NCBI GenBank assembly: GCA_035610835.1
Contig: CM069447.1
Span: forward strand, 39,096,057 to 39,160,056
Length of the DNA stretch: 64,000 nt
Direction of reading: 5' to 3'
Source: Ophiura sarsii
Lineage: Eukaryota; Echinodermata; Ophiuroidea; Amphilepidida; Ophiuridae
The notes under the pieces are model-generated. The model was not told the DNA's origin and searched no databases. It saw nothing but the letters and a program-made list of their open reading frames with translations. Shown piece after piece: positions 3,124 to 64,000 of the stretch. Position 1 is the stretch's first letter; every line of letters starts with the position of its first letter. The translations under genes and the position numbers were made by a program.

Positions 3124-3228
3124 CTCATCTTTGATGCTTGGGTCTGACTTGTGCTCCAATAGAACTTTACAAATCTTATCAGGTTCTTCATCATTCGATG
3201 CTGCATAGTGTAATGGTGTTTTACCAGT
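3124..3228 (-). CDS. Ankyrin exon, 35 codons
   Basis: Phase-0 exon with AG acceptor and GT donor. It has the TGKTPLHYA start and KICKVLLEHKSDPSIKDE end, with variable segment ASNDEEPD, one residue shorter than the usual 36. Leftmost intact exon and so the most C-terminal seen. It has PSIKDE, not the PNIKDE of most copies. Confidence 0.85.
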
Positions 3229-6200
3229 CTGTAACATAATAAAGATAATATACATTATTTACACTCTTATTATGTAATTCATTTAATAATAACAGAAGAA
3301 TTACTTGTGGAATAATTGTGTTACTCTACTAAAGCAACATGTCACCATTTTGTAAAGGATAAATGTGTACGGTTATATGAAATTACCACTAAATCAGTGT
3401 TGCAAGATTAAAAAGACTAAATACGTGAAGCTATAAAATAACATCGGCTATCAATTGCAATACACAATGACACCAATATGGGTGTATATAATACCTCATC
3501 TTTGATGTTTGGGTCGGACTTGTGTTCCAATAGAACTAAATCTATTGGGTCGGACTTGTATTTCAATAGAACTTTACAATAGAACTAAATCACCTAATCT
3601 ACATGTAGTTTAAACTCTTACAACATTGATCCCCATCAGTTGCAAGTTTAACATACGTTTGGCTCATATTAGGCCTGTCATATCTGCATGACCTCCCGGA
3701 CACTGCGCCTATACGCTGTTTTTTGTTTTAAAATACCAAGGATGTATTCAATAACTACCAAAAAAATGCACACAAATCTACTCTTGGGGAACTCTTGGAA
3801 TTAGGGTTTGAAGTTGAGGGTACATTATTGCGTCATTAGCGATATTGACACGATGGCGTTCCATCGAAATGATGACATGCTGTGATTACTGTGTGTCTAC
3901 GAGCTGCGTGTACAGACAATCTCCATTCAAAATACACATCGAAGAACATGTTGTAATTATGATACGGTATACGATACATTTCATAGATATTTGTAGCTTG
4001 TTATGTTGATTGGTAATTGATATGTCATCGGTAGTGATATAATAATTGGTATAATTCATGTATTGAAACATTAAGCTATTCAATGACCGTTTTAAACGGG
4101 CAAAAAGGGTGTTTGTCATCTGATTATGAAGCGAGATGGTATGGTCGGCAATATTGGTAATACTCACTTATCACAAGAAGACGGACTACGTTATGGATTG
4201 AATGTTTTATTGATGACGGAGCAAGTGTATTTGAGTGTGAAACGCACAGGGGTGTATGTCTACGGTATTAAACAACTAAAAGGCGGAGTAAATAAGGAGG
4301 GAAAAGGGAATGACACGCACATTATAGGGAACCGGAGAAAGAAAGATAGAACCAGGAGTAGATCCTATGATTATGTGCATCAACCCCCAGGGGCCCTTGC
4401 CCCCCCCCCCCCCCCCAACCCCCACCACACACACCCTATCGATATCGGTAGATATTGAGAACTCAGTATTTGTTGCAATTACTTTCAGTTACCAGAGCTA
4501 CTTATGAGTGATTTTTCGAAAGAGTTGGGACAGTTGATAATCGAGTCCATCGGTTTCGTCGAGCAACTGGCGTAAAGAAGATGAAGATATGACACAGAGC
4601 CACCGGCCAGTTGAAGATGAAGATATGATACAGAGCCACCGCACCGGCCAGTTGAAGATGAAGATATGATACAGAGAAGGCGTGTAGCAGATACAGATAT
4701 AGCACAGAGCGACCGGTGTGAAGAAAATGAAGATATGAAGAGCGACCGTCGCGGCGGCGTGAAGTAGATGAAGATATGAAGAGCGACCGGCGTTAAGAAG
4801 ATGAAGCTATGATACATTAGAAGGCGTTTCAACATTTCATATTGAATGTAAATGTTATTCACTGACAACTCAAACAAGAGAACAGATCTGTTAGTGTTAA
4901 TATTGGTTCAATCATTATTATTAACGAGTCCTTATACATTTTCAATTTAACTATCGATTGCAAAATACTGAAAAGTAATCTGTGGTTCTTCTATTTAATC
5001 AAACAAATTTTATATAATCAACTTTGTGTATATTGGAAATAGCCTTACGGATACTTTTGAATCAAAATTATTATAATTTGCATAAATTTTTGTATTTGCT
5101 GCTGTCTTAAGTCTTAATAAAGAGACGATATATTTGTCTATAATTTCGAAGCTCAACTGACATTTGTTTTTTCTTTGGAACATACAATAACATAGTTAAA
5201 GAGTTTCAATGAAGGATAAGTTCTGTTTTTATGACATTTCAGAGAATAACCTAGGTATACCCTTCCTTTTCATTTTTGGTGCCAGCTGTACTATTTCAAA
5301 GAAAAAAACAAATACTTTTGATGCTATTGTAAACGTTTGATGTGTCAAACATAATTCTATTAGTTTTGTACGCAAGATACAGTTGCTTATATTGCTTTGC
5401 ACAGTTATTTTTGATAATCGTTTTAACATTTTATTTAACTATGTACAATGAAAGTGAATGTTATTTACTGAATACTCAAACAAGTGAACAGATATGTTAA
5501 TATTGGTTCAGTCAGCATTAAATGAGTCCTTATACATTTTCAATCTAACTATCAATTGCAAATTCCGGAAAATGAATCTGTGGTTCTTTTACTTATTGAA
5601 ACCAATTTTATATAATTAACTTTGTGTATATTGGAAATAATCTTACGGATACTTTTCAATCAAAATGATATATAATTTGCAGGAATTTTGTCTTTGCTGC
5701 TGTCTTAACTTTTAAGAAAAGAGACGATAATTATGTTGTCTATAAATTCAAAGTTCATCTGCCATTTGGTTCAAGGATAAATTATCTTTGTACGACAGCA
5801 ATACCATTCCTTTTCATTTTGGTGGCAGGTACTATTTCAAAGAAACGCAAATAATGTCGATGCGATTGTAAACGTTGATGTGTACGGTGTGAAAAATAAT
5901 GTTAGTTTCGTAATTTCAGGCAGAGAAATGATATATATTGAGGTATCAACTTGCTTTAAAGCAAATAACGTGCAATTAGTATGTCAATTAAAATGTGACA
6001 ACTTTTAATGCAGTATTTTAATTTTACAAACTCATGTTATGCTATATCTTACGTCGGGCTTACATTCCGACACAAATATTCGTATTATAAAGAATCACGA
6101 TGCATATAATATTATTTGCAAAACATGTCAACCCTAGTGGATATTCTTTAATTAATAAATGCAGCATTGCCGAGCTGAAAGTTTGATTTGACGGTGTTTA

Positions 6201-9200
6201 AGTAATGTCAATATAATTAGCATTGTTCTTCATTTTTAGATTTTTACCGTTGGACATACATTATTCATATTTATTCTAAAATAGTGCAATAATGGTTTGT
6301 CTATATGGAACTCAATAAAGGATTTTATCTTCAATCATACTAACTACTATTCTATTGACATGACATATAACTAATTTTGGCAATATGCTTGGTTGCTATT
6401 ATCTGTGTGTGATTAATTCCCATTGAAGTGCGCAGACAATATGTGTTGAATAGATGAAAGATATTCATATACTTAAAACTTAGTTTTCAATACTATAAGG
6501 AACTAAATCAAGGAATTAAAATGAGGACCGTTCTCTTATGCAAAAAATACACACAGCTAATTAATATCAAATCAAGCTCAATTGATTTGTATGACTCAAT
6601 TTGATTTGTTATCGACCCACGGTTAAGATTTGCAGTTACTTGTATAGTAAATCGCCTCATTAACATGAACATGTAGTTTAAATTGTACACTTATTATAAA
6701 TGCTTAGTTGTTATTATTATTATTAATGTTATCTATATACTAATTTTCGGTCCCTCGCCTGATTAGATAGTTCAATAATAATTTTGCACTCGCGTCCCTC
6801 TTCAACTGAAAAAGCGTGGTAATTGCGCCTCTAATAGACGAGCTAATTAGATAGTTCAATACCCGTTTTTTCCCGTTTTCAGACATGCGCAGAAAGGATC
6901 ACATGTGAAAATCCAAAATGTTGAATTAATTTTACTCGAGTAGCTACTGTTCGGACACAAATTGTGGTTTTCGGAGTGAGTGATGACATATGGTCTTCAC
7001 CCAAAATATTTTCTTCAGGGATATAGCTACATTTCTGTATATGCGGCTGTTTGTTATTTTTAAAGATCGCATAGTAATAAGCATTTATACGTCCGACAAA
7101 TAAAAATATTTCACGACATTTTCTAAATGTAAACAAAAACTCTTACACATATCTTAAAGTGACACTTTCACATTAGTAACATAGATGAATGCGACGTTTG
7201 CTAACGATAAAGAAACTGGCAGTACCATGTCAACCGTTTCTATGTTGTGCTGCGCGACCGCGTTTAACATGGCGCATGCGGTTCGGCGCACACGTGACGC
7301 AGACAAAAAGTGTACGCGTTTGTGGCGCAAACCGTGCACATTGTAACGGAGCAGAGTGAAAGCAGGCAGTCCGTACACTCTAGAAAAAGGATGCTTCAGG
7401 CTTCAGGGGTTCTTGGCTGTCCCGTATGGAACCCATGTTTATATCACCTTAAAAGGTTCCAAAAAGAACCATTTTAAGGTTCAAAATAGGCAAAATATGG
7501 GCAAACCTCCTCCTCTCCGCACTTGGATATAAGGGCACATGGGGCATCTGGATAAACGGAACGTGTTTTTTGTGTGGTACATTATCATGCTTATTATAGA
7601 GTGTCTGAATTATTAAGGGCATCCGTGGTATCTGGATTACGAGGTGCACTATAAAACGAGTCTCAAATTACCTAGATATACTATGCGCAGGTGGGCCACC
7701 TTTGATAACAGACTGGATTTTAAGGGTGTACACTCAGATAGTATCTCGGGAGGCTTTATAGAACACAGCAAACATGACAAAGGGACTACATACTATAATA
7801 CGTTAAGGCCCCACATGCCTATTGGAGGAATAATGTATTTAATGTAAATAGGCCAAACAAAACCCGGATGGCATATATTGTGCTCAAGCACAAGTGATCT
7901 TGATGATAGACTCCGCCGACCATACTAAACGACCGACTATAAAACTATAACGCTCAGAACGTAGGCCTACTGAATTACCTGGATACAGTAGGCCTATGTG
8001 CATATGGGCAGTGGCGACACCAGCACCAAAATGTTAAAGGAGGAAAACGGGGTGGCGGGCAATAAAAGAATCGGGGGAGACATTTAAAATCTAAATTTTA
8101 AGTAACTTTCAATTTTGACATTAAAATTCAACTTTTTATTATTTGGGGTACACAAAATAGGTAGAGACATGCGCTGACAGGAGATAATAACTGGGGGTAT
8201 TAAAAACACGTTGATGGAGTAGGCCTACTTGGATTAGGAACATGGGTATCTGTATTATTTAAGAGCACATTGGGCCTAGGCTCATGGTGTATTAAGGGCA
8301 CCATGTCACTTACATTATATCAAGGGCACTTCCTGAATTATTTAAGGACATACTTTTGATATTTATATAAACATCTATAACGCTTTGACCGCTGCCTATT
8401 GTGATATGACTTTTACTGCTCGCTATCTTCGGCACCCGCGTTTAATTTACTTGACTATGATAAAGTAAGGGCACCTGGGTATCTCGAGATAACGGCACAC
8501 TGCAGTGGGCCTACCTTGATTATGTGGTATCCGGTGCATTATTAAGGGCACCTGGGGTAACTGGATTAGGGGGTAGGGCTTAGGACTATGTGGTCCCTGG
8601 ATATATTGGACAACGGGTACCTGTATTTCAGGTCTCACGGGAGGCCTACATAGGTATCGGGAAACACAAACGTAGGCCTACCTAGATTAAGGCACATGTA
8701 TACCTGGATTATCAAAAGCACCAGTCCTGCGCTATTCGGATTATTTAGGGCCCCGTCTGGATTATGTATACATGTAGGACATGTTCTTGGTATTATTGTA
8801 TCACATTTTCTTACGCTTTGTTTACTTATTCCCCGTGAAACCTTCTAGCGGGTCCAGCGCGAAGCGCTGGTGCCCGCTAGTTATTATTACTTGTTGGCTT
8901 TCCTGCCTTTTCCTCCATATTGTCCTATGGTTGTATTTTGTTTGTTATCTGTTTGGTTTGTTTGAATATTGTTGATGTTTTGTAAATGTTGTTATATGGA
9001 AATAAATGATTGATTGATTATTATTATTTATATTATATTTATTATGAAACGTTTATTTATTGTTGTTAAAAGGAGAGTAACAAAAAATAAAACAACACGT
9101 GGAACTAATAAATAAATTGTATGTTTCAATATACCGTTCTTAAACCCAACTATTGCTTTATAGCGAAGATAAAGCCTATATATTAGATAGGGCTATTTAT

Positions 9201-12200
9201 TTTCATTTGAGACACACTATATAATAACCAGTCTATCAGAACTAACCGGCCAGGCCTAATCCATATTGAATTGTATTGTGCTCTATTGAGGTAGTATTAT
9301 GTCTATGAATAGCAAGGCATGAATTGAATGTGATGGCTGATGAACTATTGAGTGTCCCAGCAGAAATAAGGTCTGACTGAAATTTGCAAATATCGTATTT
9401 TTTTGGATTTTCCCCCTCACGGTCCCAACTTTAACCTCTTATAAAAAGAGTTCCCCAATAGTACATTTTTGTGCATTTTTTGGTGGTTATTGAATACTTC
9501 ATTAGTATTAGCATGTGTAAACCAAGTGAGACACTACACACCACACAACCCTCGTTTAGTTGCTGAAAGGCGTTGACGAGTACCAGCATAGATGTAGATG
9601 TAGATGTATTTTAAAACAAAAACCCAGCGTATAGGCGCAGTGTCCGGGTATCGTCAAATAAATGACAATTTTGAAAGGCCTATATTCCTGGTTGTCTGGA
9701 ATCTTTCTCTTCTCTGCAATTCTTATTACGTGAAGGATCATATGAATAGAAAATGTAGTGATTCACAATAATGTAATAATTTAACCTTTAGAAGATTATA
9801 GTGATGAAAGGTTTGTGTTGGTTTAAAGATCAATCAGTCTATAGCAACATATTACCATGCTTTCAAGATTAAAGTGATTTATATATTAATACTGTACTGA
9901 TTCAAATACTTGTAATTTTGTAATCTAATGTTTATAGATATCGTGATGAAATGTCGCTGTTCAGTAGGGCATGAAGCCATAAAAAAAAACATCGGCTCTC
10001 AATTGGAATATGCAATACTGACACCGATATGGGTGGATACTTTACCTCATCTTTGATGTTTGGGTCGGACTTGTGTTCCAATAGAACTTTACAAATCTTA
10101 TCAGCAGTGTAATAAGTGTGATAATCAGTAGATGCTACTGCATAGTGTAATGGTGTCTTACCAGTCTGTAATGTAAAGATAATACAGTATACATAATTTT
10201 AAGTTAAACTCTTATCATATGATTCAGTCAATACTAAAGCAACTAAAGCAACATGTCACCATTTTGTAACGGATAAATGTGTACGGTTATATGAAATTAC
10301 CACTAAATCAGTTGCAAGATTAAAAAGACTAAATACGTGAAGCTATAAAATAACATCGGCTATCAATTGCAATATGCAATACTGACACCAATATGGGTGT
10401 ATATATTTATACCTCATCTTTGATGTTTGGGTCGGACTTGTGCTCCAATAGAACTTTACAAATTTCATCAGCTCTATGATAATGATTAGCTTCTGCATAG
10501 TGTAATGGTGTTTTACCAGTCTGTAATGTAAAAATAATATACATTATTTACACTCTTATTATGTAATTCATTCAATAATCACAGAAGAATAACTTGTGGA
10601 ATTGTGTTACTCTACTAAAGTAACATGTCTCCATTTTGTAAAGGATAAATGTGTACGGTTATATGAAATTACCACTAAATCAGTTGCAAGATTAAAAAGA
10701 CTAAATACGTGAAGCTCATATATTACTGATTGTCTGGAATCTATCTCTACTGTACAATTTTCATTAAGAGAATGAATCTATAAAAAGAAAATATAGTTAC
10801 TCAAAATAATGTAATTTAATATTAGTATATACAGTGATGAAATGTTGGTGTTGGTTTATAGATCAATCGGTCTATAGCAACATGCTACCCTTCTTTCAAG
10901 AATAAATTGAATTAATTATTAATAATGTACTGATTCAAATAATTGTAATATTGTAATTAAATGTTTATAGATATCGTGAAGAAATGTCGGTGTTCGGTTT
11001 GGCATGAAGCTATAAATAACATCGGCTCTCAATTGCAATATGCAATACTGACACCAATATGGGTGTATATAATACCTCATCTTTGATGTTTGGGTCGGCC
11101 TTGTGTTCCAATAGAACTTTACAAATCTTATCTGCTTGGTAAATAACATTAGCTGCAGCATAGTGTAATGGTGTTTTACCAGTCTGTAATATAATAAAGA
11201 TAATATACAGTATTTATACTCTTACTATGTAATTCATTCAATAATCACAGAAGATTAACTTGTGGAATTGTGTTACTCTACTAGAGCAACACGTCACCAT
11301 TTTGTAAAGGATAAATGTGTACGGTTATATGAAATTACCACTAAATCAGTTACAAGATTAAAAAGACTAAATACGTGAAGCTATAAAATAACATCGGCTA
11401 TCAATTGCAATATGTAATACTGACACCAATATGGGTGTATATAATACCTCATCTTTGATGTTTGGGTCGGGCTTGTGTTCCAATAGAATTTTACAAATCC
11501 ACTCAGCTCTGCCCAACCCATTAACTACTGCATAGTGTAATGGTGTTTTACCAGTCTGTAATGTAACGATAATATACATAATATTAAGTTTATAATACAC
11601 TCTTATCATGTGATTCATTAATAATCACAGAAGAACTACTTGTGGCATTTTGTTACTCTACTAAAGCAACATGTTACCATTTTGTAAATGATAAATGTGT
11701 ACGGTTATATAAAATTACCACTAAATCAGTTGCAAGATTAAAAGACTAAATACGTGAGGCTCATATATAACTGATTGTCTGGAATCTTTCTCTATTGTAC
11801 AATTTTCATTAAGAGAATGAATCTATGAAATGAAAATATAGTTACTCAAACTAATATAATTTACTATTAGTAGATACAGTAATGAAATGTTGTTGTTGGT
11901 TTATAGAATAATCAGTCTATAGCAACATGCTACCCTTCTTTCAAGAATAAATTGAATTAATTATGCATAATGTACTGATTCAAATAACTGTAATATTGTA
12001 ATTTAATGTTTATAGATATCGTGATGAAATGTCGGTGTTCGGTATCGCATGAAGCTGTAAAATAACATCGGCTATCAATTGCAATATGCAATACTGACAC
12101 CAAAATAGGTGTATATAATACCTCATCTTTGATGTTTGGGTCGGACTTGTGCTCCAATAGAACTTTACAAATCTCATTATCTTCGTAATTTTTACTAGAT

Positions 12201-15200
12201 ACTGCATAGTGTAATGGTGTTTTACCAGTCTGTAATATAATAAAGATAATATACATTATTTACACTCTTATTATGTAATTCATTCAATATAACAGAAGAA
12301 TAACTTGTGGAATTGTGTTACTCTACTAAAGTAACATGTCACCATTTTGTAAAGGATAAATGTGTACGGTTATCTACATTATTACTAAATCACCTAATCT
12401 AGTTTAAACTCTTACAACATTGATTCCCGAGCAGTCGCAAGTTTAAAATACGTTTGGCTGATATTCCTGGTTGTCTGGAATCTTTCTTTACTGTACAATT
12501 CTCATTACGAGAAGTATTCTATTAATTGAAAATATCGTAACTCACAATAATGTAATTTAATATTTTGAAGATATAGTGATGAAATGTTGTTGTTGGTTTA
12601 TATATCAATTAGTCTATAGCAACATGTTGCCATGCTTTCATTAAAAAAGAAGATTTATATATTAATACTGTACTGATTCAAACACTTGTAATAATGTAAT
12701 TTAATGTTGATAGATATCGTTATTATATGTCGCTGTTCGGTATGGCATGACGTAATGAAATAGTATCGGCTATCAATATTACGAAATGCAATATTGACAC
12801 CAATATGGGTGTATACTATACCTTATCTTTGATGTTTGGGTCGGACATGTGCTCCAATAGAACTTTACACCTCTTATCAGGTTTGTATAAAAAACCTCCA
12901 GCTACTGCATAGTGCAACGGTGTATTACCAGTCTGTAATATAATAAAGATAATATACATTATTCACACTCTAATTATGTAATTCATTCAATATAACAGAA
13001 GAATAACTTGTGGAATTGTGTTACTCTACTAAAGTAACATGTCACCATTTTGTAAAGGATAAATGTGTACGGTTATCTACATTATTACTAAATCACCTAA
13101 TCTAGTTTAAACTCTGACAACATTGATTCCCCAGCAGTTGCAAGTTTAAAATACGTTTGGCTGATATTCCTGGTTGTCTGGAATCTTTCTTTACTGTACA
13201 ATTCTCATTAGGAGAAGGATTCTATTAATTGAAAATGTCGTAACTCACAATAATGTAATTTAATACTTTGAAGATTACAGTGATGAAATATTGTTGTTGG
13301 TTTATAGAATAATCAGTCTATAGCAACATGCTACCCTTCTTTCTAGAATAAGTTGAATTAATTATGCATAATGTACTGATTCAAATAATTGTAATATTGT
13401 AATTTAATGTTTATTGATATCGTGATGAAATGTCGTGGTTTGGTATGGCATGAAGCTATAATTAACATCGGCTATCAATTGCAATGTGCAATACTGACAC
13501 CAATATGGGTGTGTATAATACCTCATCTTTGATGTTTGGGTCGGACTTGTGTTCCAATAGAACTTTACAAATCTTATCAGCGTCGTGATTTCTATTAGCT
13601 GCTGCATAGTGTAATTGTGTTTTACCAGTCTGTAATATAATAAAGATAATAATAATGTTTACACTCTTATTATGTAATTCATTCAATAATCACAGCAGAA
13701 TAACTTGTGGAATAATATTACTCTACTAAAGCAACATGTCACCATTTTGTAAAGGGTAAACGTGTACGGTTATATCTATAAACTTCCAACTAAATCACCT
13801 TATCTACATGTAGTTTAAACTCTTACAACATTGATCGTCATCAGTTGCAAGTTTAACATACGTTTGGCTCATATTCCTGGTTGTCTGCAATATTTCTCTT
13901 CTCTACAATTCTCATTACGTAAAGGATAATATGAATTGAAAATGTAGTGATTCGCAATAATGTAATTTAATATTTAGAAGATTACAGTGATGAAGTGTTG
14001 TTGTTGGTTTATAAAATAATCAGTCTATAGCAACATGCTACCCTTCTTTCAAGAATAAATTGAATTAATTATGCATATGATACCCAGAGGGCGCCACCAG
14101 GGAGTGAGCAGCAACCTCTTACATGTCTGCTGTTTTTGTGAAGTTTTTGTTGAAACTTCTGTGCTTCGTGCTTTGAAAAATTTACTGTGTATGGATGTTC
14201 TTGATATTTGATACTACATTTTTGATGCATTTTATGGAATTATATTGTTACTTCTCCAACTTGGAACTATGGAATTTAACACAGTGTACATATAGCCACC
14301 TTGGATATTGATTATTTGCTGCCTTGACAGTGACTTGCCTAATTTGCATACTGCTCTTTACTGCACAGGATGTGTCTTTTGTAATTTATGACCCTGCACA
14401 AGTGCTATTGAATTTACATAATGGCTGCACAGCATGTGATCATCTTGACTCTTCTACTTATCTCTTGTGTTATCAATTTTTTGACTACTCAGGCTATGAA
14501 CTCAATGTTTCTGTTTCTCAGAAATATTACAAATACAAATGTGATCACGAAAATGGAAAATATCTAAATAGTAGAATACCATATTATGCCAACTGTAATG
14601 CCACATTTCAACTTGAACTATTGGTATGTGGTGACATAGAATATAATCCTGGACCAGAAACGACTTTAGCTGAACCTACTTCTACCACATGCAGTACCAC
14701 ATCAAATGATTTCAAACATTATATCTTACAACAGAACAGAACTTCTTCAACTGAACAAAAATCACCATCAAACAGTTCCTCATCTCTCATGTGAACTTTG
14801 GAGTCACCTTAAGGACTTGGGTATAAACAACCGCTGTCGTATTCCTCGTAAGAAAAGAGGTGGGCGCCGAAAGAAAGCTTTCATCCCTCATGAGCATGTT
14901 AATTCTACCGAAGTCCCGCATTTTTCACCTGAACCGAGACTAATTGATAACTCTCATATAAATCGCGATACCATCTCTACTAATTTCACCAATCTCTGTG
15001 TTCTCAACACACAATCTGTTTGTAACAAGACCGCTGTAGTTTGTGACTACATACTGGAACATGACTTTGATATTATTGCCCATACGGAAACTTGGTTGTC
15101 AAACTCTGACAAACATAAGCAAACCGTTGGAGAGTTGACACTCACTGGATATAACTTTTTCCATGTCCCTCGTCCAATTCGATCAGGAGGAGGCGTTGGT

Positions 15201-17737
15201 ATTATTTACAAAGAGTCCATAACCAGAGTTGCCAGCAGCCTATTCCAAGCAACATCATTTGAAAGTGTCGCTGTGACCTTACTTTTAAAGGTGATATATT
15301 ACCACTTAAAATTGACATTTTATATAGACCCGGGTACAGTAAGAAGCACCGTGTAACACCGAGGGTATTCTTCGAGGACTTTTCTGCATATGTTTCATCA
15401 TTATCAACATCGGTTGTAAACTCTTGATAGTCGGAGACTTCAATTTTCATTGGGATATACCATCTGACCCTGATGTCATCCGCCTCGCTGATATTCTTTC
15501 ATCATCAAATTTAACCCAGTTTGTACGCGATCCTACCCATATTGATGAACATACTTTAGACCTTGTTATTTCGCGTTCAGATGATGATATCGTTGATTCT
15601 GTGACTGTTCCATTTTTGTTTACTGATCACGCCGTTATTCATTGCCAGCTTGCTTTACAAAAACCTAAATTTGTAAGGAAAGTTATTTCTTATCGCAAAT
15701 GGAAATCCATCAACAAGGATAATTTCGCGAAGGATTTACAACTAAGTGAATTGATAAGCAGCTCATCAGATCTTGACACCTTTGTTGATGAATATGACAC
15801 TATTCTTCGCAATATTCTTGGCACGCACCTTTAAAACATAGATCCATTACTATTCGCCCCTCTAATCCATGGTATACTCCTGAAATTGATACGGCCAAAA
15901 AACTTCGCAAAAAACTTGAGCGAAGATGGAGAAGAAACAATCTGGATATAGACAGACAGCTATTCAAATCACAGCGCATGGTTGTTGTTAATATATATGA
16001 TAAATTATGCCAAAGCCAAATACTACGAAGACAAAATATTGCAATGTAAAAGCCAAAAAGAAAATTTCAAAGTTGTCGAGAGTCTCTTACACCAAAAAGG
16101 CAATGTCAAGCTACCCTCGCACGCTTGTCAAAAGGGACTTGCACATCGATTCAATGATTATTTTGTCTCCAAAATTTCTAAAATACGTCGGGATCTTGAT
16201 ACCATTGTTCCAACTGCTCCTGTTCTGCCTACTGAGAATAATGTTGCTACATTCATGATGTCTTTCATGCCTGCCACTGACGATGAAATATATAAGCTTG
16301 TGTCGTCTTCACCCTCTAAGTCGTGTACATTGGACCCAATTCCTACATGGATGTTGAAAGATCATATTAACATCATGGTGCCCGTCATTACTAAGATTGT
16401 AAATCTCTCTCTTGAAAATGCAACATTTCCTGACCATTTTAAAAATGCACTTGTTTCTCCACTCATAAAGAAGCCTTCCTTGGACGATGCGCTACAACCT
16501 TTTCAACAATTTTTGATACAAAACGCAGATTGGACACAGGACGAAAATTTTTCAAAATGTCTGCGTCCATTCAGCTCTGAAATGGTTTCAGTCCTACCTC
16601 AAAAACAAAACTCAAGCAGTAAACATAAATGGAACTATTTCTACACATGTTCCGCTAAAATATGGCGTTCCTCAAGGATCTGTGCTTGGACCTATACTAT
16701 TCACCATCTATTCCTCTCCCATTGCTAGCATTGCTCGCAAACACGGATTAAATGTTCATTCTTACGCGGACGATACACAACTATATGTGCCTTTTAATTT
16801 AAATGATCGTAATGATGAAATGTCGGCCCGTCAACGCGCAGAAGCTTGTATTTTAGAAATCAAGTCGTGGATGTCTGTAAACAAGCTGAAATTGAATGAT
16901 GATAAGACAGAGTTTTTAATTATGACCTCCAGATTCAATCAACGTAAAATATGTGATCATCATATCAATATTGACACTTCTTCTGTTCTTGCTTCGAAAT
17001 CTGCTCGGAACTTAGGAATTGTGTTTGATAATAATCTATGTATGGATGTTCAAGTTCGACGGATATGCTAATCAGTGTATTATCATAATTATACGGAATG
17101 TCAATAGCATAAGGAAAATGTTAACATTTGAAACCGCAGCTACTATCGTCCATGCTCTTATAACTTCTCGTATTGACAATGGCAATTCTCTTCTTTTTGG
17201 CATCACTGATCACTTACTTCACAAACTACAACTCGCTCAAAATGCAGCTGCTCGCATTCTCACCAAGACCAGGAAATTTGATCATATCACTCCAATTTTG
17301 AAAGATCTCCACTGGCTTCCTGTTCGCGAAAGGATTCATTTCAAACTTCTTCTTTTAACTTGGAAAGCTTTTCATGGCACTTCACCAACTTATATTGCTA
17401 ATCTTCTTGTTCCATATCATCCAAAACGTACTCTCCGGTCATCTGATAAACTTTTACTTGTTGTTCCACGGACTACTTCTTCATTTAGAGATCGCGCATT
17501 TTCGGTTGCTGCACCAACTCTCTGGAACTCACTACCTTATAATTTAAGATGCTGTGATTCACTTGACTCTTTTAAGAACTTGTTAAAAACAAGATTATTT
17601 GACTCAGTTTATAATTGATTTCTTGTATGTATATGCAAATCATCCTTGTTTATGTATTTTTCATGTTAATTTGTATTTTTGTTTTATATGTTGCGCCTCG
17701 GAATAGTTTACCTAGATTGACGGCGCATTATAAATGC

Positions 17738-17813
<76 letters not shown>

Positions 17814-20800
17814 ATATACTGATTCAAATAATTGTAATATTGTAATTTAATGTTTATAGATATCGTGATGAAATGTCGCTGTTTGGTATGGCATGAAGCT
17901 ATAAATAACATCGGCTCTCAATTGCAATATGCAATGCTGACACTAATAATATGGGTGTGTATAATACCTCATCTTTGATGTTTGGGTCGGACTTGTGTTC
18001 CAATAGAACTTTACAAATCTCATAAGCTCCGTAAGTAACTGCTGCATAGTGTAATGGTGTTTTACCAGTCTGTAATGTAATAAAGATATTATACATTATT
18101 TACACTCCTATTATGTAATTCATTCAATAATCACAGAAAAATAACTTGTGGAATAATGTTACTCTACTAAAGCAACATGTCACCATTTTGTAAAGGATAA
18201 ATGTGTACGGTTATATATAAAATTACCACTAAATCCATGAAATCAGTTGCAAGATTAAAAAGATTAAATACGTGAGGCTCATATATTACTGATTGTCTGG
18301 AATCTTTCTCTACTGTACAATTCTCATTAAGAGAATGAATCTATAAAATAAAAATATAGTTACTCAAAATAATGTAATTAAATATTAGTAGATACGGTGA
18401 TGACATGTTGTTGTTGGTTTATAGAATAATCAGTCTATAGCAACATGCTACTCTTCTTTCAAGAATAAATTGAATTAATTATTAATAATGTACTGATTCG
18501 AGTAATTGTAATATTGTAATTTAATGTTTATAGATATCGTGATGAAATGTCGCTGTTTGGTATGGCATGAAGCTGTCGTAACTCACAATAATGTAATTTA
18601 ATACTTTGAAGATTACAGTGATGAAATATTGTTGTTGGTTTATAGAATAATCAGTCTATAGCAACATGCTACCCTTCTTTCTAGAATAAATTGAATTAAT
18701 TATGCATAATGTACTGATTCAAATAATTGTAATATTGTAATTTAATGTTTATTGATATCGTGATGAAATGTCGCGGTTTGGTATGGCATGAAGCTATAAT
18801 TAACATCGGCTATCAATTGCAATATGCAATACTGACACCAATATAGGTGTGTATAATACCTCATCTTTGATGTTTGGGTCGGACTTGTGTTCCAATAGAA
18901 CTTTACAAATCTTATCAGCTCCGTGATAATCATTAGCTGCTGCATAGTGTAATGGTGTTTTACCAGTCTGTATTATAATAAAGATAATAATAATATTTAC
19001 ACTCTTATTATGTAATTCATTCAATAATCACAGAAGAATAACTTGTGGAATAATATTAATCTACTAAAGCAACATGTCACCATTTTGTAAAGGGTAAACG
19101 TGTACGGTTATATCTATAAACTTCCAACTAAATCACCTTATGTACATGTAGTTTAAACTCTTACAACATTGATCCCCATCAGTTGCAAGTTTAACATACG
19201 TTTGGCTCATATTCCTGGTTGTCTGCAATCTTTCTCTTCTCTACAATTCTCATTACGTAAAGGATAATATGAATTGAAAATGCTAGATTCACAATAATGT
19301 AATTTAATATTTAGAAGATTACAGTGATGGAGTGTTGTTGTTGGTTTATAGAATAATCAGTCTATAGCAACATGCTACCCTTCTTTCAAGAATAAATTGA
19401 ATTAAGTATGCATAATATACTGATTCAAATAACTGTAATATGTAATTTAATGTTTATAGATATCGTGATGAAATGTCGCTGTTTGGTATGGCATGAAGCT
19501 ATAATTAACATCGGCTATCAATTGCAATATGCAATACTGACACCAATATGGGTGTGTATAATACCTCATCTTTGATGTTTGGGTCGGACTTGTGTTCCAA
19601 AAGAACTTTACAAATCTTATCAGCTCCGGGATAATCATTAGCTGCTGCATAGTGTAATGGAGTTTTACCAGTCTGTAATATAATGAAGATAATATACATA
19701 ATATTTACACTCTTATTATGTAATTCATTCACTAATCACAGAAGAATAACTTGTGGAATTGTGTTACTCTACTAAAGCAACATGTCACCATTTTGTACAG
19801 GATAAATGTGTACGGTTATATAAAATTACCACTAAATCAGTTGCAAGATTAAAAAGACTAAATACGTGTGGCTCATATATTACTGATTGTCTGGAAGCTT
19901 TCTCTACTGTACAATTTTTATTAAGAGAATGAATCAATAAAATCAAAATATATTTACTCAAAATAATGTAATTTAATATTAGTAGATACAGTGATGAAAT
20001 GTTGTTGTTGGTTTATAGAATAATCAGTCTATAGCAACATGCTACTCTTCTTTCAAGAATAAATTGAATTAATTATTAATAATGTACTGATTCGAGTAAT
20101 TGTAATATTGTAATTTAATGTTTATAGATATCGTGATGAAATGTCGCTGTTTGGTATGGCATGAAGCTGTCGTAACTCACAATAATGTAATTTAATACTT
20201 TGAAGATTACAGTGATGAAATATTGTTGTTGGTTTATAGAATAATCAGTCTATAGCAACATGCTACCCTTCTTTCTAGAATAAATTGAATTAATTATGCA
20301 TAATGTACTGATTCAAATAATTGTAATATTGTAATTTAATGTTTATTGATATCGTGATGAAATGTCGCGGTTTGGTATGGCATGAAGCTATAATTAACAT
20401 CGGCTATCAATTGCAATATGCAATACTGACACCAATATGGGTGTGTATAATACCTCATCTTTGATGTTTGGGTCGGACTTGTGTTCCAATAGAACTTTAC
20501 AAATCTTATCAGCTCTGTTATGAGAAATAGCTGCTGCATAGTGTAATGGTGTTTTACCAGTCTGTAATATAATAAAGATAATAAACATAATATTTTCACT
20601 CTTATTATGTAATTCATTCAATAATCACAGAAGAATAAACTGTGGAATTGTGTTACTCTACTAAAGCAACATGTCACCATTTTGTAAAGGATAAATGTGT
20701 ACGGTTATATAAAATTACCACTAAATCAGTTGCAAGATTAAAAAGACTAAATATGTGAGGCTCATATGTTACTGATTGTCTGAAAGCTTTCTCTACTGTA

Positions 20801-23800
20801 CAATTTTCATTAGGAGAATGAATCTATAAAAAGAAAATATAGTTACTCAAAATAATGTAATTTAATATTAGTAGATACAGTGATGAAATGTTGTTGTTGG
20901 TTTATAGAATAATCAGACTTCTTTTATTCTGTGATAATGATTAGCTGCTGCATAGTGTAATGGTGTTTGACCAGTCTGTAATGTAAAGATAATATAAATA
21001 TTTACACTCTTATTACGTAATTCATTCAATAATCACCGACGATTAACTTGTGGAATAATGTTACTCTACTAAAGCAACATGTCACCATTTTGTAAAGGAT
21101 AAATGTTATGGTTATATGAAATTACCACTAAATCAGTTGCAACATTAAAAAGATTAAATACGTGAAGCTATAAAATAACATCGGCTATCAATTGCAATAT
21201 GCAATACTGACAACTATATTGGTGTATATAATACCTCATCTTTGATGTTTGGGTCGAACTTGTGTTCCAATATATCTTTACAAATCACAACAGATCTGTA
21301 ATAATGATTAGCTGCTGCATAGTGGAATGGTGTTTTACCAGTCTGTAATATAATAAAGATAATATACATAATATGTACACTCTTATTATGTAATTCATTC
21401 AATAATCACAGAAGAATAAATTGTGGAATTGTGTTACTCTACTAAAGCAACATGTTACCATTTTATAAAGGATAAATGTGTACGGTTATATAAAATTACC
21501 ACTAAATCAGTTGCAAGATTAAAAAGACTAAACACGTGAGGCTCATATATTACTGATTGTCTGGAATCTTTCTCTACAGTACAATTCTCATTAGGAGAAT
21601 GAATCTATAAAATAAAATTATAGTTACTCAAAATAATGTAATTTAATATTAGTAGATACAGTGATGAAATGTTGTTGTTGGTTTATATATCAATCAGTCT
21701 ATAGCAACACGCTACCCTTCTTTCAAGAATAAATTGAATTAATTATAAATAATGTACTGATTCAAATAATTGTAATATTGTAATTTAATGTTTATAGATA
21801 TCGTGATGAAATGTCGCGGTTTGGTATGGCATGAAGCTACCGGGTGTCCCTAAAAAGGGTGCACGTGTTTATCCAACTTGTTGACCATGAAGTTCTAACA
21901 TTTGGTGAAATATGTTTACAAAAATATAAAAAGATTAAATACCTGGCTTTCAGATGCTGCTTATTTCATCTGATTCGGATTTGTCAATCCTGAGATATGG
22001 CCAATTAACTAGAGCTACCCAGAATTGATGTTATGCCACTTTACAGTTTCAAAGGTTTACTCCTAAGATACAACTTCCACTTGTACGATTGCTCTTCACC
22101 AGTATTATGTAAAATAACATTTTTGTATAGAGATTGACTAGGTTTAAATAGTAGAATTAGTGCCTGTGTATCCAGGCAGAACTAAATATAAAGATGTTTG
22201 TTGCATGATTCGAACCAGTCCTTTTAACGACGTTTCACAACCTGTTTATTGGGCCTACATTTTCAAAACAAGACAGACGTCCACATGGCTGGGTGCAGAC
22301 TCAATTTTCGTGGTCTTAAAATATCATGAAAACGAAAAGTCCAGCAGAAGTCACCAGAGAGTTTGACATTCATTTCCCAAACACTCACGTACCATCTAGG
22401 AATACACCTACAAAGCAGTATTGGAAATACTTGGCAGATGGTACAAGCACCAACGTGAATAAAGAATTAACACTGGAAGACTAAAATATGAAATGTGGCA
22501 GGACATGCAGGACACAGTAACACATCGATGACGTGCGGCGTGCACTTCAGAGGGATCCCAGAATAACTGCTCGTAGAAATCCCTTACCCCATATTCCAAG
22601 GACATCACTTTTGTTCCTCAGCCTCTTTTAAACAATTCTGGTCAAATGCCCAGCCCAATGTTTCAAGACGACTGATGCCCATGGATTGACCAATGTTAGT
22701 ATCGTTTTGACGCTCATAATCATTCTTTCTGTAAAAGTGGCACAACGTCGATTTTGGGTAGCTTTGATAAACTGGTTATATCTCAGGATAGACAAATCCA
22801 AATCAGATAAAATAAACGGCATCGGAAAGCTGAGTGTTTCCCCGTTCCGTGTGTATAAACATATTACATCACACTTTAGGACTTCATGGTCAACAAGTTG
22901 AGCAAACATGTGCACCCTTTTTAGGGACACCCTGTATAATTAACATCGGCTATCAATTGCAATATGCAATACTGACACCAATATGGGTGTGTGTAATACC
23001 TCATCTTTGATGTTTGGGTCGGACTTGTGTTCCGATAGAACTTTACCAATCCTATCAGCTCCGTGATAATCATTAGCTGCTGCATAGTGTAATGGTGTTT
23101 TACCAGTGTGTAATATAATAAAGATAGTAATAATATTTACACTCTTATTATGTAATTCATTCAATAATCACAGAAGAATAACTTGTGGAATAATGTTACT
23201 CTACTAAAGCAACATGTCACCATTTTGTAAAGGATAAACGTGTACGGTTATATCCATAAACTTCCAACTAAATCACCTAATCTACCCTTCTTTCAAGAAT
23301 AAATTGAATTAATTATTAATAATGTACTGATTCAAATAATTGTAATATTGTAATTTAATGTTTATAGATATCGTGATGAAATGTCGCTGTTCGGTATGGC
23401 ATGAAGCTATAAAATAACATCGGCTCTCAATTGAAATATGCAATGCTGACACCGATATCGGTGTATATAATACCTCATCTTTGATGTTTGGGTCGGACTT
23501 GTGTTCCAATAGATCTTTACAAATCTTATCAGCTCCGCGATTACAATTAGCTGCCGCATAGTGTAATGGTGTTTTACCAGTCTGTAATGTAAAGATTATA
23601 CGTAATATTTACACTCTTATTATGTAATTCATTCAATAATCACAGAAGAATAACTTGTGGCATTTTGTTATTCTACTAAATGAACAAGTTACCATTTGTA
23701 AAGGATAAATGTGTACGGTTATATGAAATTACCACTAAATCAGTTGCAAGATTAAAAAGACTAAATACGTGAAGCTATAAAATAACATCGGCTATCAATT

Positions 23801-26800
23801 GCAATATGCAATACTGACACCAATATGGGTGTATAAATAATACCTCATCTTTGATGTTTGGGTCGGACTTGTGTTCCAATAGAACTTTACAAGTATCAAC
23901 TTGATACAGATTAGCTACTGCATAGTGTAATGATGTTTTACCACTCTGTAATGTAACGATAATATACATAATATTAAGTTTATAATACACTCTTATCATG
24001 TGATTCATTCAATAATCACAGAACTACTTGTAGCATTTTGTTATTCTACTAAATTAACATGTTACCATTTTGTAAAGGATAAATGTGTACGGTTATATGA
24101 AATTACCACTAAATCAGTTGCAAGATGAAAAGACTAAATACGTGAGGCTCATATATTACTAATTGTCTGGAATCTTTCTCTACTGTACAATTTTCATTAA
24201 GAGAATGAATCTATAAATGAAAATATAGTTACTCAAACTAATGTAATTTACTATTAGTAGATACAGTAATGAAATGTTGTTGTTGGTTTATAGAATAATC
24301 AGTCTATAGCAACATGCTACCCTTCTTTCAAGAATAAATTGAATTAATTATGCATAATGTACTGATTCAAATAATTGTAATATTGTAATCTAATGTTGAT
24401 AGATATCGTGATGAAATGTCGCTGTTCGGTATCGCATGAAGCTATAAAATAACATCGGCTATCAATTGCAATATGCAATACTGACACCAATATGGGTGTA
24501 TACTATACCTCATCTTTGATGTTTGGGTCGGACTTGTGCTCCAATAGAATTTTACAAATCTCATCAGCTTCGTCAAAACCGCTAGCTGCTGCATAGTGTA
24601 ATGGTGTTTTACCAGTCTGTAATATAATAAAGATAATATACATAATTTACACTCTTATTATGTAATTCATTTAATAATAACAGAAGAATTACTTGTGGAA
24701 TTGTGTTACTCTACTAAAGCAACATGTCATCATTTTGTAAAGGATAAATGTGTACGGTTATATGAAATTACCACTAAATCAGTTGCAAGATGAAAAGACT
24801 AAATACGTGAGGCTCATATATTACTGATTGTCTGGAATCTTTCTCTACTGTACAATTTTCATTAAGAGAATGAATCTATAAATGAAAATATAGTTACTCA
24901 AACTAATGTAATTTACTATTAGTAGATACAGTAATGAAATGTTGTTGGTTTATAGAATAATCAGTCTATAGCAACATGCTACCCTTCTTTCAAGAATAAA
25001 TTGAATTAATTATGCATAATGTACTGATTCAAATAATTGTAATATTGTAATCTAATGTTGATAGATATCGTGATGAAATGTCGCTGTTCGGTATCGCATG
25101 AAGCTATAAAATAACATCGGCTATCAATTGCAATATGCAATACTGACACCAATATGGGTGTATACTATACCTCATCTTTGATGTTTGGGTCGGACTTGTG
25201 CTTCAATAGAACTTTACAAATCTTATCAGTTCTGTGATAATTGATTCCCGAGCAGTTGCAAGTTTAAAATACGTTTGGCTGATATTCCTGGTTGTTTGGA
25301 ATCTTTCTACTGTACAATTCTCATTACGAGAAGGATTCTATTAATTGAAAATGTCGTAACTCACAATAATGTAATTTAATATTTTGAAGATATAGTGATG
25401 AAATGTTGTTGTTGGTTTGTAGATCAATTAGTCTATAGCAACATGTTACCATGCTTTCATTAAAAAAGGAGATTTATATATTAATACTGTACTGATTCAA
25501 ATTCTTGTAATAATGTAATTTAATGTTCATAGATATCGTCATTAAATGTCGCTGTTCGGTATGGCATGACGCAATGAAATAGCATCGGCTATTAATATTA
25601 CAAAATGTAATATTGACACCAATATGGGTGTATACTATACCTCATCTTTGATGTTTGGGTAGGACATGTGTTCCAATAGATCTTTACAAATCACAACAGA
25701 TCTGTCATAATGATTAGCTGCTGCATAGTGTAATGGTGTTTTACCAGTCTGTAATATAACGATAATATACATAACATTTATACTCTCATAATCACAGAGG
25801 AATTACTTGCAGAATGTTGTTACTCTACTAAAGCAACATGTACGTAGCCATTCTGTGAAGGATAAAACACCTCATATATATTAAACTTTTATAAAATTGA
25901 TCCACATCAGTTGCAAGTTTTAGAAAGCCAAACTCCTTTGGCTGTTTTTTATTTGTTTTTTTATTTGCTGTAATTATTGAACAATTAATCAAATGCATAT
26001 AAAAGTATACATTTTTGGAAAGGAAATATATCAGAGAATCCATATTTGACTTTTTTTACCAAATTATTTTTTGGACAAGCTGACAAAACTATTGTGATTT
26101 TATCCAAAAATCAACATTTTTGTTCAACATTTATTTGGGACAAGCTAAAAATATTATTTTTGAGTAAAAAATGCCCAAACTTGCTTGATTTTACTATTAT
26201 TAAGACACTAATATAGTGCCGATTTTCTCATTTTTTCTTCTAAAGCTGTAGTTTTTGATTTTAAACACTTGCTACAGCATAATGCTCAACATCAAACGCA
26301 TGGATCATGTCCCAAACACCACCATTTATGACATGACCAAGACTGAGCCTCAAGGAATAATATACTTTAATAGTTGTAGAATGTGTAGATATGCTGATGA
26401 AATGTTGTTGTTAGGTATAGAACGTAGCAATAAAATAGTATCCGCTGCATCAAATTGCAATATTGACACCAGTGTAAATGTATATACCTCATCCTTGATG
26501 CTTGGGTCCGACTTGTGCTCCAATAGAAGTTTACAAACTCCCCATTTTCCTGGCAACCCAGATTCTGCTGCATAATGTAATGGTGTCTTACCAGCCTATA
26601 CCATCAAAGTAATATACAAAACATTATTACTCATTATTGGTTATTCATTTACTACTCACATAAGTTCATGGATATATTCGTTAGTCTAAATCAACATCAC
26701 CATTCATTGAAGGATAAAAGTAGCAGGGTCTTTTTATCATAATCTTAGCCCCATCCCCTTAAAAAAATTTTTTTAAAAAAACAATAGAAGAAAAAATTAG

Positions 26801-29800
26801 AAAAGGAATCAATGAAGAAAAAAATAAATATCGATTGAAAATAATAGAGTAATTCATAATAATATAATTTAAGAGTTGTAGAATTAGTAGATATGTTGAT
26901 GCAATGTTGTTGTTAGGTATAGAACGTAGCAATAAAATAGTATCAGCTGCATCAAATTGCAATATTGACACCAGTGTACATGTATATACCTCATCCTTGA
27001 TGCTTGGGTCCGACTTGTGCTCTAATAGAAGGTTACAAACTCCCCATTTTTCTGGCAACCCAGATTCTGCTGCATAATGTAACGGTGTCTTACCAGACTA
27101 TAACATCAAAGTAATATACAAAACATTATTACTCATAAGGTTATTCATTTACTAATCACATAAGTTCATGGCTATATTCGTTATTCTATATCAACATCAC
27201 CATGTATTGAAGGATAAAAGTAGCAGGGTATTTTAATCATAATCTTAGCCCCCAACCCCCTAGCCCCCCCCCCCCCCCCCCACCCACCCCAAAAACACAA
27301 AACATACCCAAAATAGAAGAAAAAATAGAAAGAAATCAATGAAGAAAGAAGAAGAAAAAAATATCGATTGAAAATAACAGAGTAATTCATAATAATATAA
27401 TTTAGTAGTTGTAGAATGTGTAGTTATGCTGATGAAATGTTGTTGTTGGGTATAGAACGTAGCAATAAAATAGTATCCGCTGTATTCAATAACAATATTG
27501 ACACCAGTGCACTTATCAAACTGTATTATACATTTCACGGACATAAATTATGCTAATGAGCTCATTAAATGACGTCACTCGCATCATCGGGTTTTCCCGA
27601 TGATTGAAATCCGTTGATTGAAATTCTAGGTCGAGTAAAATGATGTTCTTATTTGTTGTCTGTGAGCTTTTGTGAATTTTTTCCCGTATTGGAGTATTTT
27701 TTTATTGAAAATAGACAGTTCAAATTAAACGTTGGTTCCAAGTTCAACTGACAGCACAATTATTAAAGGCGACAGCAACTGCAATATGCAGGCAACATTT
27801 GAGAAATAACGATGCCCGACTTTGCAAGAAAGTGTACGGGGAAGTGTACGGGTGAACATGACAAACCAAAACAGCCTAGTAAATAATCACCTCCGTGGCG
27901 CAATTGGTTAGCGCGTTCGACTGTTAACCGAAAGGTTGGTGGTTCGAGTCCAGCCGGGGGCGTTGTTACTTTTTGCATTTAATGCAGATCGACAAATCAC
28001 AGTAAAAATATAATATTGACAAAATCACAGACCACTTACACAAAAATCGCATCTGCGCATGCTCCTGTCGTGATCGAAATCCAACACACAAGCAATGGGC
28101 GAGTTTTATAAGTGCAGTGTACATGTATTCTATACCTCATCTTTGATGCTTGGGTCGGACTCTCCAATGGTTTGGCAACCCAGATTCTGCTGCATACTAA
28201 AAGGGACTGTGTAGGAATACAGCTACAAGACGACAAAAGTCAGCCAAGTAACTACAAACACTGCAACATGCAGACGCAAATACACATTGAGCAAATCATG
28301 ACTAGGGGATAGGGCGAGCTAGAATGAAATAGTGAGATGTTACGGTATAAAGTATAGTGATGATACTTTTGGGTTTATTGGTTGATAGAATGGAGTGCTA
28401 TAGTAAAATAGATTTATTCCGTAAACATGTAGGCCTAAACTCTAATTAATTGGTAGAAATCGGTGTTTCAACTTGATAGTTAAACCAATAAAACTAGATC
28501 AGACCAATTTTATCAGACATGTTTTTTGCCTGTTCGTGCATTAGGAATAAAATATTTTTTACTAGGTTCTTTTTTGATCTTATTAATGAATTTAAACCCT
28601 TTACTAAGGGCAATAATTTCGATATCTGATAGTGGAATATCAATGTAAATGTATATATGAAATGTTTGCAACGTTTTGCCTCGGCTTTTAATTGCGCCTG
28701 GCGATTTGATAATTTATTAGTTGCATGGGTTCGGTGAAATGAACCACGGTTGGTAATAGACTTGTTACGTTAAGAGGTTTGAGTCTTAGCCCGCTTACGT
28801 ATGACTGTGCGTTTCTTATTATGTGATGGCATGACTGTGTATGATTATGTGTTAAGTTGACAATTTATAGATAAATAGTATTGATATACTTTATAATTAA
28901 TGGGAAAATGAAAGGACTAAACAGGCAGTATTATCAATACTGTCTAACAGTTTTAGGTGGAAGTGAAAGGCCTGACAAATAGTATTGATGTACTTTATAA
29001 TTACTGGAAAAATGACAGGTCTAAACAGGCAGTATTATCAATACTGTCTAACAGTTTTAGGTGAAAAAATGAATGAAACAGCCTGACAAATAGTATTGAT
29101 ATACTTGTAATTAATGGGAAAATGAAAAACCTAAACAGGCAGTATTATCAACACTGTCTAACAGTTTTAGGTGAGAGGCCTAACAATCGTATTGATATAC
29201 TTAATCAATTGTTTTAACACACAAAATATAAAATAAGCTTTGAAAAAAGCCGTTTGGATCAGGGCTTATCAGCTGATGTACGCTTTGGCCGTGAAACACA
29301 AACTAAGTGACTTCATTGAGTTCACTCAAACTATATATCATGTCATTGCGGACGTAAAGCACACACATTGGTTGCGTGTATGAGCATAGCCAAATGCGAG
29401 AGGGCGTAGAGATCAAACGCGTAGTCACACGCCACCTACGTTGGGTGGCGTCTTATTTGATAATAAGACGGCATGAAAGTACTACGGGTGCTGTGTGCAC
29501 GTCCGTTGAATATGAATGTCATATGTTGTGTACTTTAGGATAATAATAAATAAGGCCGTGTAATATGGATGTGTAAAATACCAACATTTCATATAGCATG
29601 ATGCTACTTTGTTTAAGAATTTTTTGAACCAAAACCGCATTTTGTGTAACTTGTCACGTGGATATAGACTAGTGCCAGGATACGCTTTGGCCGTGAAACA
29701 CAAACTAAGTGACTTCATTGAGTTCACTCAAACTATATATCATGTCATTGCGGACGTAAAGCACACACATAGAGTCACGATAAGGTCATAACGGGTTGCC

Positions 29801-63211: not shown

Positions 63212-63295
63212 TTGTAATCCAGATTTAACAGCATCCTCTTGAAGATATGTTTGCAGTGTCGACAGATCCCCACTTCGTAAAGCTGATACGATTGC
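63212..63295 (-). CDS. Helical cap exon, second copy
   Basis: 28 codons, phase 0 to 0, intact splice sites. Identical in sense to 43264-43347 but for SALRSGD instead of SALQSGD. No ankyrin exon was found between it and 43347. Confidence 0.75.
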
Positions 63296-63994
63296 CTGTG
63301 TAAAATGAAGAACTTTCCATGTTACGACTTTAGTAAAATGAAGAGGCGTGTGTATTGATTAGACTATGAGTTATAAGGCAGAAAGATCGGGTATTGTTCG
63401 GCAAATTTATAACGAAAGTTCGATATCTTTCTATAATTCACGTATAAATGTTGTATGGTGAGTTTAGTGTGTGTGTGTGTGAGGTTACTACAGACCTATA
63501 TCGAAATAGGTGAAACAGTTTGTATAATACAATGATAGATTTTAGTGTCATGCTCAGCTTTCGGTGGCTCATATTAAGTTCATTACATTGATTTGAGGGT
63601 TTACGAAGTGGACTAAATTTGTAATATGGAAGTTCATATAATTATGCCAAAATATGTCGAAGGAAAACAAAAGTTATAGCGTACTTCTTTAGATTACAAA
63701 GAAAATTGGAAGATAATAGCTATCAATATGACTATTTGAGGTTATAATTCTTTTTTGGCGAGAGATTATGGTACTACTCAGTGTGTCCTTCTCCTAAAAA
63801 TTGACTTGCGAACGAGAAAAAGACCTATTGCACAAACATTACATCGAGAACTCCTCTTAAAAGTGCCTTTATGTATAGCTAAGGATATATTGAAGGTATT
63901 TATGAAAATATAGATTCAGGGGACATCGTCTTTTTTGTCACGCATGTTTCAGAATTTTATGTTTTGAGATTGCATGCCAATTGTGTGTACATAC

Positions 63995-64000
63995 CTCTTT
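63995..64000 (-). CDS. Linker exon, second copy (cut by window end)
   Basis: The donor and last codons (AAAGAG before GT) match 44662-44667, as does the preceding intron. Only six bases lie inside the window. Confidence 0.55.

Follow-up and report, generated by a model that had tools for sequence, protein, structure and literature searches.

Introduction

Candidate immune receptors with one repeat per exon have been described in brown algae, where ROCO genes carry tandem, shuffled exons with positively selected repeat sites; those exons encode leucine-rich repeats (LRRs), are 72 bp long and in phase 2, belong to genes with a ROC-COR GTPase and have documented splice variants (PMC11378527). 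In fungal NLRs, highly conserved ankyrin (ANK), TPR and WD repeats with few positively selected positions (five in ANK) are reported, together with possible concerted evolution and change in repeat number (PMC4986451). On the signalling side, PIDD1, NLRP1 and CARD8 are built from an N-terminal part, ZU5, UPA and a death-fold domain and cleave themselves at HF/S or SF/S (PMC3210808, PMC7483925), and destruction of the N-terminal part of NLRP1 or CARD8 frees the self-cleaved C-terminal fragment (PMC7483925). Here we analyse an array of single-ankyrin exons in a stretch of 64,000 nucleotides of the brittle star Ophiura sarsii (assembly GCA_035610835.1, contig CM069447.1, positions 39,096,057 to 39,160,056), referred to below as the window. 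The array probably forms the sensor of a gene that belongs to a multigene family, in which the ankyrin part would diversify by exon turnover and the output would be NLRP1/PIDD-like.

Structure of the ankyrin exon array

Searches of the window located 20 complete exons on the minus strand between 27097 and 3124, with starts from 27097 to 3228 and the last base at 3124, each encoding one ankyrin repeat of 34-40 residues. Exon lengths (102-120 nt) are multiples of three in 20/20, the differences being confined to one short segment. All 20 exons are free of stops and in phase 0/0, every donor is GT, and the acceptor is AG in 19, the exception being the exon at 23107, which has AC. Unlike the exons, the array introns have lengths that are multiples of three in 5 of 19 cases. 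The preliminary description of this DNA, which had proposed about twenty single-ankyrin exons in phase 0, was therefore accurate, and its proposal that symmetric phase would permit any subset of exons to be joined holds for the layout, given the uniform phase and matching splice sites. It had also called the introns near-identical, which is fair in outline but loose, as the mean divergence of the flanks is 0.117 (160 alignment columns, 17 core exons; the core set leaves out the outer exons at 27097, 26595 and 3228, whose flanks differ in appearance, at 3228 on the downstream side).

The one array exon tested alone against Pfam matched PF00023 with an E of 1.1e-7 (32.2 bits, cut-off 21.1). A profile of all 20 exons matched both engineered and natural ankyrins in the Protein Data Bank (PDB), the engineered ones best. 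The exon pattern exceeds what chance would give, every exon scoring at E 5.4e-21 or below in a search with the family profile, although that profile derives from these same exons.

Loop variation and selection

The framework (TGKTPLHYA...CKVLLEHKSDPNIKDE) is near-constant, codons 12-19 are the most variable, and the 20 loops are all distinct. In alignments against three engineered ankyrins the variable segment runs from the last part of helix 1 through the turn into the first part of helix 2, and three residues are inserted at the turn. An AlphaFold model of one repeat (helices 5-11 and 16-26), of low confidence with a pLDDT of 64, was used only to locate the helices. The alignments thus agree with the earlier claim that the variation falls between the helices.

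In the 17 core exons, the proportions of nonsynonymous (pN) and synonymous (pS) differences were 0.42 and 0.20 in the loop and 0.053 and 0.063 in the framework, with 0.117 in the flanking introns, and a 24-nt sliding profile reached 0.365 at the loop peak compared to an intron maximum of 0.158. With all 20 exons (codons 13-20 taken as the loop), nucleotide diversity fell from 0.415 in the loop to 0.147-0.164 in the introns and 0.088 in the framework. Corresponding values in a sister array at C7:37.13-37.14 Mb (16 of its 17 exons) were pN 0.32 and pS 0.07 in the loop, 0.033 and 0.078 in the framework and 0.080 in introns, and in an array at C7:71.56 Mb, 32 Mb away (8 exons, loop at codons 11-18), pN 0.43 and pS 0.24 in the loop, 0.067 and 0.214 in the framework and 0.248 in introns. 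A strict count was made on disjoint exon pairs, 20 in all, drawn from the three arrays. The window's three outer exons were again left out, as one sister exon had been from the sister values; every pair count skipped codons containing a stop or a gap, and the disjoint-pair count for the window and sister arrays skipped pairs with fewer than 80 aligned intron positions. The excess of loop over intron change was strongly significant in these pairs (p 1.7e-26), and the ratio of nonsynonymous to synonymous change (N:S) differed between loop and framework (p 0.0008). As loops exceeded introns in all three arrays, the variable codons are not drifting like the introns, a possibility that the preliminary description had set against itself. 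Mantel correlations between the distance matrices of exon segments and flanks were mostly weak, which fits exchange between exons and is no proof of it.

Paralogous loci and family scale

A search of the 1.57-Gb genome allowed three paralogous loci to be compared, with 5, 17 and 20 complete array exons, which share the gene order of constant 5' exons, array, constant ankyrin exons and ZU5-UPA, followed in two of them by a probable death domain (DD). The sister array lies 2 Mb from the window, inverted, and is about 79-96% alike over the longer aligned stretches. Two of the paralogous loci do not share their exon order (Kendall tau 0.16, p 0.35), which indicates that exons turn over. The earlier claim that the single-repeat exons are interchangeable is upheld.

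Genome-wide, one exon gave at least 150 scored matches from 317 candidates, in clusters on two large contigs and as single exons on further contigs; these match counts are lower bounds. Grouped by eye, the matches formed 20 clusters, nine with several exons and eleven with one. A ZU5 on the same strand within 25 kb downstream was found in 19 of the 20 clusters, including all nine multi-exon ones, the exception being C2:26976, and it was of the common type (at least 80% identity) in 17 of those 19, the other two being the window locus and C7:38957978. We give no weight to the chance figure computed for this association (1e-55), which treats sites as independent and uses clusters drawn by eye. 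The ZU5 stretch of the third locus had at least 115 matches among 140 scored; at least 49, one of which has stops, covered nearly the full length with identities of 53% or higher, and at least 32 had 80% or more, none with stops. Ordinary ankyrin, UNC5 and ZO-1 genes may be among the at least 137 ZU5 matches counted genome-wide, and some of the reading-frame listings had passed a filter on length, stops or low complexity.

Two further observations were made in the same searches. At C7:38966075-38973528, six exon matches at intervals of about 1,470 bp, four with equal scores, point to a recent regular expansion. Another class of single-ankyrin exons (NTPLHYAASEGHHEVCKLLLQANAEVNAKDE) occurs at loci L001-L008 (C9:22.68-23.08 Mb and C9:0.77 Mb); in L001-L004 the loop is identical in the exons read, so that hypervariability is not general to ankyrin arrays in this genome.

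The downstream ZU5-UPA module

Each of the three loci examined, including that of the window, has a ZU5 above the Pfam cut-off; the UPA domain that marks the ZU5-UPA-death-fold class was found, and an HFS motif, as at the PIDD self-cleavage site, is present in 3/3 array loci. A profile search matched the ZU5-ZU5-UPA-DD chain of Ankyrin-2 (4d8o) at E 4.4e-7. Evidence for the death domain is graded: among four relatives, Pfam Death was above the cut-off in one (23.5 bits, cut-off 22.6), below it in two (21.3 and 16.9) and not found in the fourth, P0242, whereas fold matches to a death domain were obtained for the relative P0243; in the sister and third loci the corresponding position gives weak death-domain matches (E 0.07 and 0.1). 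In each locus, that the gene runs on from its exon D, at the end of the ankyrin block, to ZU5 is suggested by order, strand, distance and recurrence.

P0242, a protein of 1512 residues named as from Amphiura filiformis, carries three ubiquitin-like stretches, a NACHT domain and a similar ZU5, and appears to be related to the array genes and NLR-like. For the UPA region, matches to antibody domains (Foldseek, VIA-align) were taken as common beta-sandwich similarity, and a match of the window-locus ZU5 frame to AcrIIA26 in the PDB (E 0.0038, residues 7-50) as chance.

Proposed mechanism and alternatives

We consider it quite likely that these arrays are the sensor arrays of a ZU5-UPA gene family. 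A recognition role is now more plausible than it would be from the window alone, because ZU5-UPA modules and probable death domains stand behind related arrays. For self-cleaving, NLRP1/PIDD-like signalling, which is argued by analogy, the chances seem to us evenly balanced. In the mechanism we propose, unequal exchange and gene conversion, aided by the similar introns, would spread and turn over exons, while selection would keep the framework and favour new loops. In the simplest model all sound exons would be spliced in constitutively, giving one solenoid of about 20 repeats with the variable loops in a row along one edge, where a target would bind. The ZU5-UPA would cut itself at HF/S as in PIDD; once the N-terminal sensor is lost or displaced (or a target binds), UPA and the death domain would be set free for signalling, by analogy with NLRP1/CARD8. 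The broadest form of the proposal is tentative: that an animal possesses a family of self-cleaving NLRP1/PIDD-like death-domain receptors whose sensor is drawn from a genome-wide stock of swappable one-repeat ankyrin exons with a hypervariable loop, exchange among loci and possibly splice choice giving a recognition repertoire.

Read directly in the DNA are the exon anatomy, loop change above the intron rate, the non-collinear exons of two loci and the recurrent downstream ZU5; several points weigh against going further, some of them in the window's own copy. Its exon D has lost the donor (CCG|CTAAGA, where the sister and third loci have CCG|GTAAGA), the adjacent ZU5 frame is divergent (36% identical to the third locus) with no death domain seen in it by Pfam, and constraint on the framework is weak (pN/pS 0.85, compared to 0.43 in the sister array and 0.31 at C7:71.56 Mb). 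Moreover, the nonsynonymous-over-synonymous excess in the loop is borderline (p 0.067 for three arrays, 0.051 for the first two), the database matches listed include no array protein or annotated protein for these loci, an absence that is no proof, and both the gene model and the proposed role are predictions from DNA sequence. A relic cut off from its effector and drifting, with loop variety due to past selection only, would account for the damage to the window copy, to which one dead acceptor, five exon fragments and a common-type ZU5-UPA-DD copy further down that carries stops can be added, and we rate it as somewhat short of an even chance. Drift of this kind fits poorly with an array in which every exon is open and a multiple of three in length, 19 of 20 keep both splice sites, and framework divergence is still about half that of the introns. 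Within a living family, the window copy may be a member in decay or a decoy; that it is fully functional we hold to be somewhat doubtful.

The remaining alternatives concern how the array is used and how its variety arose. Alternative splicing could pick exons, as in Dscam or the brown-algal ROCO genes, and give many binding surfaces per locus, the symmetric phase and matching splice sites making any subset possible and the ROCO genes offering a precedent (PMC11378527). Phase symmetry fits full inclusion equally well, however, and we regard splice choice as unlikely. An ordinary scaffold, with the repeats of an ankyrin-type adaptor serving to bind host partners and playing no immune role, seems to us similarly improbable: ankyrins share the order of ankyrin repeats, ZU5, UPA and death domain, and the 4d8o match noted above is of that kind, but loops outpace introns in three arrays and two loci carry reshuffled sets of exons, which we would not expect of a fixed scaffold. 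Targeted hypermutation of the loop DNA, in place of selection, would explain why synonymous change in the loop exceeds that in introns when the window and sister arrays are taken together (0.147 vs 0.060, p 0.006), and the borderline nonsynonymous excess would suit it as well. At C7:71.56 Mb, on the other hand, loop pS (0.237) is close to the intron value (0.248) over all pairs with pN at 0.43, although four disjoint pairs differ (0.273 vs 0.096), and loop N:S is unlike framework N:S, so that hypermutation appears very unlikely; our reading of the raised loop pS is that old loops may be held by selection while exchange homogenises their surroundings. An assembly artefact, from unmerged haplotypes or repeat collapse, is hardly credible. 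Recent tandem copies do assemble poorly, but the exon flanks here are 12% divergent on average, the sister array is distant, inverted and itself divergent, and the matches are spread over two large contigs with single exons on others.

Features of the window

The array exons, all on the minus strand, are numbered here from the 5' end of the array; each of exons 1 to 19 is open and in phase 0/0 with AG/GT splice sites, save the acceptor of exon 7. Exons 1 (26990..27097) and 2 (26488..26595) carry the loops ESGLPEKWGV and ESGLPGKWGV, followed by ANHYDRSVVI in exon 3 (25641..25748), ASGFDEADEI in exon 4 (24509..24616), ANLYQVDT in exon 5 (23844..23945) and ANCNRGADKI in exon 6 (23474..23581). Exon 7 (23000..23107, ANDYHGADRI) has a GT donor and, given its AC acceptor in place of AG, is probably skipped in splicing. 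Exons 8 (21235..21342), 9 (20454..20561) and 10 (19565..19672) have ANHYYRSVVI, AISHNRADKI and ANDYPGADKI, and the loop of exon 11 (18860..18967), ANDYHGADKI, is also present in the sister array. VTYGAYEI in exon 12 (17968..18069) and ANRNHDADKI in exon 13 (13522..13629) flank a 4.3-kb intron that holds, on the strand opposite to the array, a probable LINE-type retrotransposon (reverse transcriptase PF00078, E 1.3e-16, at 16517-17071, plus strand, within about 14312-17618). The loops of exons 14 (12822..12932), 15 (12122..12229) and 16 (11448..11555) read AGGFLYKPDKR, SSKNYEDNEI and VNGLGRAEWI, and those of exons 17 (11076..11183) and 18 (10413..10520) ANVIYQADKI and ANHYHRADEI, while exon 19 (10046..10165) has the longest of all, ASTDYHTYYTADKI. 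The last ankyrin exon in the window (3124..3228, SNDEEPDKI) has a sister-locus counterpart at C7:37143071 (SNDEEPDNI). Five exon fragments were also found on the minus strand: a degenerate relic upstream of the array (28205-28136, nhmmer E 8.7e-5) and, by profile search, a broken exon lacking its 5' part (25242-25171), one lacking its 3' part (20975-20893) and two pieces within 3495..3579 (3579-3545 and 3537-3495).

Upstream on the same strand, constant exon B (36313..36420, AG/GT, phase 0/0) probably encodes the first ankyrin repeat (ISPIPLHLAVTDRGNNACKVTELLLSSNADSSIPFK), and constant exon A (43264..43347, AIVSALQSGDLSTLQTYLQEDAVKSGLQ) is a probable ankyrin cap; both are kept in three loci, and A and B joined from other copies match Pfam Ank below the cut-off (E 0.003, 18.2 bits, cut-off 21.1). 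A probable exon 0 (44662..44822, ending ..QTPDLDEYPDIVIVKGFKE) ends in phase 0, its 5' limit having been read by eye. The 5' part of the gene is duplicated, with exon A and the end of exon 0 occurring twice about 20 kb apart (43264-44822 and 63212-64000), the second copy of exon A at 63212..63295 on the minus strand. Similar reading frames in the same order at about 46-48 kb and 56-58 kb indicate another duplication or a large repeat, and a 360-bp unit forms three tandem copies with 99% matches at 34651-35732. A 384-residue open frame at 49800-50954 (minus strand), with no Pfam match, we presume to resemble part of a Penelope-type element. The sole result of an Rfam scan was a tRNA gene just upstream of the array (27889-27962, plus strand; RF00005, 52.9 bits).

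Comparison with known systems

In each protein-database search with joined array exons about 7,990 candidates were scored, and the 120 matches listed were all ankyrin proteins; their identity over the aligned part reached at most 48%, and at most 36% for a long joined-exon query. Among the titles listed by literature searches none concerned such arrays in echinoderms, and 'ankyrin' appears nowhere in the main text of the Amphiura filiformis genome paper (PMC11310086). Repeat-per-exon receptors in brown algae and selected, conserved ankyrin repeats in fungal NLRs are thus known, whereas for ankyrin arrays with ZU5 as predicted here our searches found no description. If the proposal is correct, exon turnover would in this animal version be coupled directly to a cell-death switch of a known type, the making and control of a variable sensor in an animal that lacks antibodies would become open to testing, and the helix 1-helix 2 loop would be a different variable surface on the ankyrin fold, of possible interest to binder designers.

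The array resembles the brown-algal ROCO genes in having one repeat per exon, shuffled exons and changing repeat sites, and differs in its ankyrin repeats, phase 0 and association with ZU5-UPA-DD; by domain content it is not ROCO. It shares with the fungal NLR ankyrin repeats near-identical repeats with focal variable positions, and the available part of the fungal account makes no mention of one-repeat exons (PMC4986451). Unlike in fungal NLRs, variation here spans about eight consecutive codons of a lengthened loop between the helices instead of five ANK positions. The constant framework with variable positions also recalls designed ankyrin repeat proteins (DARPins), whose repeats each combine the two, with randomised positions in the beta-turn and helix 1; here, by contrast, the beta-turn is constant and the helix 1-helix 2 loop varies. 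Ankyrins carry an N-terminal ankyrin solenoid, and we know of no loop hypervariability or exon turnover in them. The ZU5-UPA-DD order here is like that of ankyrins and UNC5 (4d8o, 3g5b), with one ZU5 found in contrast to the two of Ankyrin-B according to the title of 4d8o. In signalling architecture the likeness is to PIDD1, NLRP1 and CARD8: the array loci likewise comprise an N-terminal part, ZU5, UPA and an HFS motif, with a probable death domain in two of the three, but the N-terminus, which consists of LRRs in PIDD, of NACHT and LRRs in NLRP1 and of an unstructured part in CARD8, is here formed by many-copy arrays of ankyrin exons.

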